A stretch of 64,000 nucleotides of DNA, from NCBI RefSeq assembly GCF_016801775.1, contig NZ_CP069004.1:2852001-2916000 (forward strand), read 5' to 3'. How positions within the stretch are numbered: the stretch's first letter is position 1; every line of letters begins with the position of its first letter. The notes beneath the pieces are model-generated. The model did not search any database and had not been told where the DNA came from. It was given only the letters and a program-made list of their open reading frames with translations. The stretch is from Sulfitobacter mediterraneus. GTDB taxonomy: Bacteria; Pseudomonadota; Alphaproteobacteria; Rhodobacterales; Rhodobacteraceae. Shown here in pieces: positions 22,833 through 39,730 of this stretch. Made by a program: the position numbers and the translations under genes.

Positions 22833-22989
22833 AGGGCTCCGTTCTGGCGGGCACGATTCGCGTGGCGCAGTGCCCGTGGAGAGATTTATCTGCACATTCC
22901 ACCGATAAGGCCAGCAAAGATGCGTTTTAGGCTGTTGGCTTGTCGCAAATCTACCTTGCCAACGATCTGGTCAAATGCGACATTCGCCG

Positions 22990-23185
22990 GGCTTGGTGTT
23001 CCGAAGCGCGTCCAATCTGGGCGTGGAACCGAACAGGGAATTCAGTAAGGATCCTCCGCGATCCGAAGCCGAAGCCGCCCCCGCGACTGTAAGCGGTGAG
23101 CCTGCGCCCAACATGCCACTCGTCCTCGGACGGGGAAGGCGGGCAAAGGCCACGACCCGCGAGCCAGGAGACCTGCCAAGCAAAT
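22990..23185 (+). ncRNA. Cobalamin (AdoCbl/B12) riboswitch
   Basis: The class signature appears in order: a P1/P2 strand TTGGTGTTCC near 22993 with its partner GGAACC, AACAGGGAA (23032-23040), the core GCCGCCCCCGCGACTGTAAG and CGG (23074-23096), ACATGCCACT with GGGGAAGGC (to 23140), and the B12 box GAGCCAGGAGACCTGCC (23161-23177). It lies 45 nt before cbtB and heads the cobalt uptake/cobalamin synthesis operon, which it should switch off when cobalamin is abundant. Confidence 0.95.
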
Positions 23186-23230
23186 GAAACGCAATATGCC
23201 GTCGGGTGTGACGGTAAGGAGAAAAAGAAG

Positions 23231-39483: not shown

Positions 39484-39517
39484 AACGAAATGGGCCGCCC
39501 CTGTTGCGGAGCGGCCC
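39484..39517 (-). terminator. Intrinsic terminator between leader ORF unit and arfB
   Basis: Read on the minus strand, a 10-bp stem GGGCCGCTCC / GGGGCGGCCC (one G-U pair, 39517-39492) with a 6-nt loop is followed by ATTTCGTTT. It would end the minus-strand transcript starting near 39730 before arfB, so arfB needs read-through or its own promoter in the remaining 43 nt. Confidence 0.7.
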
Positions 39518-39532
39518 AATCGAATGGTTTGC

Positions 39533-39563
39533 GGAGGTGGGTCGGTTAGACGCCTGTCCACCT
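39533..39563 (-). ncRNA. Anti-SD copy and competing local hairpin
   Basis: On the minus strand CCACCTCC (39540-39533) can pair with the leader SD GGAGGTG (39659-39653). It can instead pair through CCACCT with the nearby AGGTGG (39563-39558) in a local hairpin. A third small hairpin, GGTTG-AAA-CAACC, lies at 39577-39565. The two uses of CCACCTCC exclude each other, as in riboregulators. This is structure read by eye, not by folding software. Confidence 0.4.
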
Positions 39564-39590
39564 GGGTTGTTTCAACCGCCAAGGGCTGCC

Positions 39591-39647
39591 TTAGCGGGCG
39601 ACCTCCCAAGCTGTTCCGACACCTCTCTCCAATACCTTTCTTGACAC
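39591..39647 (-). CDS. 18-residue leader-like ORF with extreme Shine-Dalgarno
   Basis: GTG at 39647 opens MSRKVLERGVGTAWEVAR and stops at TAA (39591). The region 39662-39647 reads AAAGGAGGTGATCCAG on the minus strand, complementary without mismatch over 16 nt to the 3' end of alphaproteobacterial 16S rRNA, with the GGAGG core 7 nt before the GTG. An ATGTAA start-stop pair overlaps the SD. A longer 74-codon frame from 39815 begins inside a repeat and is not preferred. I do not recognise the peptide. The SD strength, a terminator downstream and a TTGACA upstream argue that it is a real expressed unit. Confidence 0.55.
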   Translation of the reverse strand: MSRKVLERGVGTAWEVAR

Positions 39648-39730
39648 TGGATCACCTCCTTTACATTTGTTGAACTCACCTGAATCGTCGCACAGGTTTT
39701 TCAATTCGCAAAGTGTTTTTTTGGCGGCGA

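Follow-up and report, generated by a model that had tools for sequence, protein, structure and literature searches.

A perfect complement of the 16S rRNA tail upstream of a short open reading frame

Why should an 18-codon ORF on the minus strand of Sulfitobacter mediterraneus DNA be preceded by a perfect complement of the 16S rRNA tail? The original prediction, drawn from the window (the whole 64-kb stretch analyzed here), described a 16-nt Shine-Dalgarno (SD) sequence fully complementary to the 16S 3′ end and reaching the GTG of the ORF, and proposed either a new small protein or an RNA that binds the ribosome. The complement is indeed present: AAAGGAGGTGATCCAG at 39647–39662 (−) is exact over 16 nt against the host's own 16S 3′ end. 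Both host rRNA copies (L067 and L069) terminate in ...GGCTGGATCACCTCCTTTCTAAGG, which sets the length of the match at exactly 16 nt. The ORF is likewise as described, with a GTG at 39645–39647 (−) opening 18 codons (VSRKVLERGVGTAWEVAR) that close at a TAA (39591–39593), for a full span of 39591–39647 (−). The expectation of about 3 in 100,000 for such a 16-mer was also correct (2 × 64000 / 4^16), and the host genome contains the exact 16-mer three times, at the two 16S ends and at this site. A search of the 64-kb window at ≤3 mismatches returned the site alone. Shuffled windows average 0.32 matches at the same stringency, so it is the exactness of the match that counts. The predicted pairing between the site and the 16S tail is −28.5 kcal/mol. 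For comparison, 47 long ORFs of the window, scored at whichever start pairs best, give a median of −13.2 and a best value of −20.5 kcal/mol, and 3000 random 20-mers give a median of −8.6 and a best value of −21.6 kcal/mol.

Distribution of the element

Conservation of the strong SD together with its ORF in close relatives, on which the original prediction had staked its case, was found. A longer genus pattern (≤3 mismatches) matches 52 of 58 genus genomes at 53 places, and an 18-mer ending in TG is present in 22 of 60 relatives. Across the class, AAGGAGGTGATCCNDTGTC occurs in 69 of 387 genomes (69 places), and a 20-mer with one mismatch in 61 of 241 (62 places, of which a few may be chance matches). 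When genomes were drawn from the whole phylum, the motif was present in 32 of 63 class genomes (by hand) and in 0 of 136 genomes outside the class. Among the matches listed are Ruegeria, Defluviimonas, Bradyrhizobium, Mesorhizobium, Methylobacterium, Sphingomonas, Novosphingobium, Brevundimonas, Azospirillum, and Roseococcus. The order of parts is a CA-rich leader, AAAGGAGGTGATCC, a start codon one base on, an ORF of 14–36 codons, and usually an intrinsic terminator. The module recurs through the class, usually once per genome; from the genera listed and the likeness to CC2171 (below), we take the class to be Alphaproteobacteria and the family Rhodobacteraceae. Genomes G047 and G609 each hold two copies.

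For comparative work we gathered 210 elements with the pattern AAGGAGGTGATCC.DTGTC. This pattern fixes the start codon and the following TC, so neither is free to vary within the set. A separate search with AAAGGAGGTGATCCAGD matched 19 of 289 genomes; judged by eye, three of its loci are 16S genes (L038–L040) and two look unrelated (L025 and L028), and these five were left out of the 210. Also outside the set are seven loci that do not fit the fixed pattern (L037, L046, L048, L050, L056, L059, and L060) and L151, which is cut by a contig end; L175, also flagged, was kept. The lineage groups named below (Rhodobacteraceae-type, Sphingomonadales-type, etc.) are defined by peptide patterns, not taxonomy.

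The predicted 16-nt match holds in the host, but its conserved core is shorter: the class-wide unit is the 14-nt AAAGGAGGTGATCC (39649–39662 (−)), and the base preceding the start codon is variable. Substitutions within this 14-mer, scored by hand at the one-mismatch places, are constrained. Of 19 transitions, 18 retain a wobble pair with 16S (50% expected; p 3.8e-5), as do 15 of 16 when counted per family (p 2.6e-4); five more changes are transversions that break a 16S pair. Outside the genus, no exact internal partner of the SD is kept (longest complement on average 5.27 nt vs 5.18 nt shuffled, n = 67), which leaves 16S as the common partner of the 14-mer. Within the genus, the longest internal complement averages 6.95 nt vs 5.29 nt shuffled (n = 20). 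Judged by these substitutions, the 14-mer tracks 16S.

The nearest described family is CC2171 of Caulobacter (RF01867), a resemblance that the original prediction missed, along with the class-wide recurrence. A permissive Rfam scan aligns the full-length CC2171 model (1–159) to 39492–39672 (−) at 32.5 bits (E 2.2e-5), short of the curated 75-bit cut-off; nothing but a Cobalamin riboswitch (22977–23194 (+), 115.3 bits) reaches the gathering threshold in the window. At E ≤ 0.001, CC2171 is found in 23 of 114 class genomes, four of them above the cut-off, and among 14 control genomes it exceeds the cut-off in one, the Caulobacter control. The CC2171 consensus opens with cAAcaAucGAAAGGAGGUGAUCCAGUGUCUCAU, sharing its leader, anti-16S motif and start with the window; its 5′ motif CAACAA..GAAAGGAGGUGAUCCAGUGUC corresponds to TTCAACAAATGTAAAGGAGGTGATCCAGTGTC in the window, and both RNAs end in an intrinsic terminator. 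However, the middle part and the long-range helix of CC2171 are unlike those of the window's element. This helix, P1, joins bases after UGUCUCAU to bases before the terminator, and an ungapped test did not recover it in the window's group (see next section). The Rfam description mentions neither an ORF nor a link to 16S. In the literature, the Mesorhizobium huakuii candidate MH_s33 is assigned to RF01867 (PMC5596092), and RF01867 is among families with improved structures (PMC11701678). Among the literature matches listed, drawn from openly accessible papers, none described a function for CC2171 or for an sRNA complementary to the 16S tail. What Rfam files as a Caulobacter sRNA appears to belong, as one of its branches, to a group that runs through the class.

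Leader, structure, and terminator

The putative small RNA would extend over approximately 39484–39680 (−), with a 5′ end placed from relatives and a 3′ end at the terminator tract. Its CA-rich leader, TTCAACAAATG (39664–39674 (−)), lies immediately 5′ of the SD. Of 210 elements, 177 have CAAC, AACAA or ACAAC within the 14 nt that precede the SD (shuffled mean 19.5; control window 11). Hexamers resembling a −10 box precede 86 of 210 relatives, vs 60 in shuffles, and 48 of the 86 sit 25–28 nt upstream of the SD; no −10 box was found for the window's own element. An intrinsic terminator is scored in 187 of 210 elements and, in the window, consists of a hairpin at 39492–39517 (−) with a T-rich tract to 39484.

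In an RNAalifold structure of 41 Rhodobacteraceae-type sequences, 95.6% of cells are paired and two-sided changes occur in 17 of 36 pairs. Its scores exceed all 500 shuffles and all slid versions, in a test on the alignment from which the structure was derived, which favours it. The fold of the window sequence itself has a z of −4.36. In the alignment structure, a 3′ CCTCC is the partner of the SD core, and the start codon lies inside hairpin P0 (TCCAGTGTC / GGTATTGGA, 39628–39651 (−)). The anti-SD-like segment CCGACCCACCTCC (39533–39545 (−)), predicted to be able to pair with the SD core, takes part in helices 1 and 3, and GAGGTGTCGG (39616–39625 (−)), whose GTCGG part falls within helix 3, may be an alternative partner for it on a reading of the sequence. 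P0 is paired in 99.7% of cells and has no pair with changes on both sides among the 41 sequences; in 15 of 53 genus matches it shows the linked changes CTAG..CTGG (by hand). P3 and the terminator covary, with two-sided changes in 6 of 7 and 8 of 9 pairs, respectively. P3 (CCCGCTAAGG-CAGC-CCTTGGCGG, 39576–39598 (−), 85.0% of cells paired) carries the stop codon in its 5′ arm and closes on a CAGC loop.

Hairpins with such CARC loops occur in 54 of 210 elements, 53 of them at +54 to +61, against a shuffled mean of 0.95; among comparison loops, the GNRA type scores 30 and six other patterns 0–6. They are found in 25 of 40 Rhodobacteraceae-type elements and in some elements of several further groups, and so link the window's version with the wider group. 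The near-fixed distance of this tetraloop hairpin from the start codon is seen in L051, L058, L113, L128, L132, and others, and the hairpin may be a protein-binding site.

The long-range helix P1, which joins bases after the start codon to bases before the terminator, has compensating variants in the VSH group and appears less sharply in the Sphingomonadales-type group. Without gaps, it forms 7.43 of 8 pairs in the VSH group (5.83 shuffled) and 7.03 in the Sphingomonadales-type group (5.89 shuffled; p ≤ 0.05 in just 2 of 32). Over 187 elements the ungapped mean is 6.19 of 8 pairs vs 5.44, with p ≤ 0.05 in 37. It does not rise above shuffles in Rhodobacteraceae-, Rhizobiaceae- or Bradyrhizobium-type elements, and 39 Rhodobacteraceae-type elements average 5.28 of 8 pairs vs 5.13 shuffled. 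A gapped duplex test gives p ≤ 0.05 in 109 of 187 elements and p 0.07 for the window, where a weaker, gapped P1 may form.

Folding gave no support for an SD that is generally free. Over all 210 elements, the SD core is mostly predicted to be paired (0.25 unpaired vs 0.30 with shuffled downstream sequence); the values for Rhodobacteraceae-type elements are 0.03 vs 0.33. Internal sequestration of the SD was rejected as a class-wide switch, given that the exact partner is not conserved outside the genus, so gating as described for the window would not be class-wide in that form. Within the window's own group, predicted internal sequestration stands.

The start codon, reading frame, and peptide

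When the bases of the start codon are left free, the motif matches 43 of 241 genomes, and the triplet at that position, read by hand, is ATG in 22, GTG in 14, TTG in 5, CTG in 0, and another triplet in 2; start codons thus occupy 41 of 43 places, and two exceptions are about the number predicted by chance on our own estimate. The RF01867 loci, which were also collected with the start codon free to vary, show one where expected in 22 of 25. One further locus, L060, has it one base closer to the SD with the ORF still in frame (by eye), and in L062 and L066 the motif was not found by script. With the motif fixed, an ORF of 14–36 codons follows in 204 of 210 elements. Of 105 cluster representatives, 103 had sufficient length; among these non-redundant elements, 98 of 103 have an ORF in this length range, whereas the other two frames give 33 and 25, and mononucleotide shuffles 35.7.

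The position of the stop is also kept in the window's lineage, by comparison of its ORFs. Codon 19 of 40 Rhodobacteraceae-type ORFs is TAG in 25, TGA in 8, TAA in 6, and TTG in 1, and never TGG, i.e. a stop in 39 of 40 (Fisher p 4.9e-5, uncorrected for relatedness). Locus L008, which lacks the conserved stop, has an ORF extending to 22 codons. In Sphingomonadales-type ORFs, codon 19 is a stop in 31 of 33, and the same test returns p 1.0, which is uninformative in a set where TAG and TGG are rare.

Amino acids are another matter. Mean entropy at the three codon positions is 0.75/0.65/0.57 in the Rhodobacteraceae-type group and 0.85/0.92/0.62 in the Sphingomonadales-type group, and neither these nor two smaller sets show excess variation at third positions. 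Peptides from different orders have little in common beyond M-S, of which the S is fixed by the gathering pattern; the underlying TC can pair in P1 in several lineages. Within lineages the peptides are alike (e.g., MSHGSA.., VSRKVLERGVGT.., KRCHLAGIAR). A conserved peptide with a conserved Trp (TW or TAW in several lineages) was considered and rejected because the codons vary. Comparison argues that the ORF is probably translated, and that its peptide is probably dispensable. Set beside dual-function sRNAs, the element has comparative evidence for translation in its start codon, stop, and ORF length, and the absence of protein-level conservation counts against a functional peptide, short of exclusion. 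That start, stop, and ORF length are kept and amino acids are not suggests that catching or hosting a ribosome, not peptide production, is the purpose. Of the two options originally offered, the ribosome-binding RNA is therefore the better reading, and a new small protein is not supported.

Two groups of loci depart from the typical ORF. At L079, L082, L135, L136, and L214, the motif and start precede ORFs of 55–59 residues that look by eye like small exported proteins, with a terminator 22–24 nt past the stop in all four that were scored; here the throwaway ORF may have acquired a protein or lengthened into one. Bradyrhizobium-type elements (L120, L183, L193, L197, L201, L220, L241, and L246) carry a 14-residue ORF ending in KRCHLAGIAR, with identical codons in seven distinct ORFs followed by three different stop codons.

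Proposed function and alternatives

Comparison across the class shows that the anti-16S core, the start codon, and the ORF length are conserved and the amino acids are not; hairpins specific to each lineage and, in most cases, a terminator accompany them. We put at roughly even odds the proposal that this is a stand-alone, CC2171-like small RNA, one of a group running through Alphaproteobacteria, that acts in trans as a ribosome-gated small RNA. The RNA would be made, bind 30S, and be translated. A CA-rich leader and a 14-nt 16S complement one base before the start would be expected to recruit 30S with exceptional strength, leading to translation of the short ORF. In the window's version, the SD core would pair with CCACCTCC while P0 holds the start codon, so an engaging ribosome would have to open both the SD:CCACCTCC helix and P0, refolding the RNA. 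The output would then be exerted in trans, with free 30S as the signal. We infer that ribosome loading is the point of the RNA; loading may serve to gate a regulatory RNA or to tie up 30S. In its fullest form, the proposal is an RNA with the ribosome as its ligand, in which the 14-nt complement reads the 16S tail, the ribosome is parked on, or run along, a throwaway ORF whose length is fixed, refolding senses free 30S, and the output is in trans; we hold this specific version to be less likely than not. Counted against the best explanation are the presence of the motif in just a quarter or so of class genomes even with one mismatch (61/241) and the mostly paired SD core predicted over all 210 elements.

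Gating is the most likely variant, and a plain 30S sink is its main rival. Here the RNA would merely occupy 30S, or stall or recycle ribosomes on a minigene, and so lower initiation elsewhere or protect 30S, all without regulatory refolding. Exceptional 16S complementarity, the leader, the unconserved peptide, and the lack of an internal SD partner outside the genus would all suit a sink, but it requires very high RNA abundance and leaves P0, P3, P1, and the fixed stop position of the window's lineage unexplained. We consider it unlikely. We are somewhat more doubtful of an ordinary small mRNA that uses a strong SD for high output of a functional peptide. Its start, frame, and ORF length are conserved, peptides are alike within lineages, and five members have the 55–59-residue, exported-looking ORFs; yet the third-position excess is absent in the groups tested, and peptides of different orders share little beyond an M-S whose TC is fixed by the pattern and possibly pairs in P1. 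A non-translated regulatory RNA with an incidental ORF, in which the 16S-like complement pairs elsewhere (with an internal anti-SD or with the tail of pre-16S), would fit the likeness to an Rfam sRNA family and the internal SD pairing of the window's group. It is improbable given that ATG, GTG, and TTG alternate at one position, that ORF length is held in a single frame, and that the internal partner is not conserved outside the genus.

If the fullest form of the proposal is true, the ribosome would be the signal and the RNA a riboswitch-like sensor that encodes no product. More broadly, what the group conserves best is a place for the ribosome to dock, a start codon, and the length of an ORF, and no protein is conserved. 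This sets translation of an RNA apart from the making of a product, and it offers a testable natural case of ribosome loading as function. It could give a handle on how Alphaproteobacteria measure or buffer free ribosomes.

Genomic neighborhood

Synteny with arfB, raised in the original prediction, holds within one lineage: among 23 distinct Rhodobacteraceae-type loci, arfB and yhhQ are each present in 22, and neither is in the flanks of the 41 other loci compared. Around the 210 elements, 631 neighboring ORFs (called crudely, at ≥80 codons within 1.5–1.7 kb) form 63 similarity groups of at least two members, of which 22 span more than one sequence cluster. The large groups are Rhodobacteraceae-type; elsewhere, the largest lineage-spanning group has five loci, on both strands. 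Because neighbors differ between lineages, we conclude, on this comparison of flanks, that the element is a stand-alone gene. A leader peptide or attenuator acting in cis on arfB or another downstream gene would match the succession of short ORF, hairpins, and terminator, and the proximity of arfB in the window's lineage. However, arfB is confined to Rhodobacteraceae-type loci, of 197 next downstream ORFs 91 share the element's strand and 106 lie opposite, an extra opposite-strand ORF intervenes in L008, L009, and L011, and the neighborhoods of the 210 elements contain no conserved regulated gene downstream. A cis role for arfB was therefore rejected, and attenuation of any downstream gene is highly improbable. 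A chance match, which has nothing in its favor beyond the one window, can be dismissed for an element found in 52 of 58 genus genomes and 69 of 387 class genomes.

Comparison with other described RNAs

The Bradyrhizobiaceae sRNA BjrC80 (RF02354) matches the window weakly (21.5 bits, far under its 80-bit cut-off), perhaps through the terminator, and was rejected as an identity on that score. CcnA of Caulobacter is likewise an alphaproteobacterial non-coding RNA involving ribosome-binding sites; it is described as CCNA_R0094, lies at the origin, and acts via a CCCC loop, and it was set aside on this description (PMC8959179). Sinorhizobium rnTrpL/peTrpL also has a short translated ORF on a small RNA; rnTrpL is leaderless, attenuates trp, and has a functional peptide, whereas the window's element has a leader and hyper-SD, no class-wide downstream operon, and no conserved peptide (PMC10117765). 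The Caulobacter sRNAs SisA–D similarly act via SD/anti-SD sequence; they bear the anti-SD signature, which pairs with mRNAs, whereas the window's element bears the SD side and matches 16S (PMC12559287). In Staphylococcus aureus, extended SD:anti-SD pairing in an initiation complex likewise reaches beyond the canonical SD toward the start codon; it concerns ordinary protein genes and, in the structure described, adds two pairs, compared with 14–16 nt on a small RNA here (PMC13009471).
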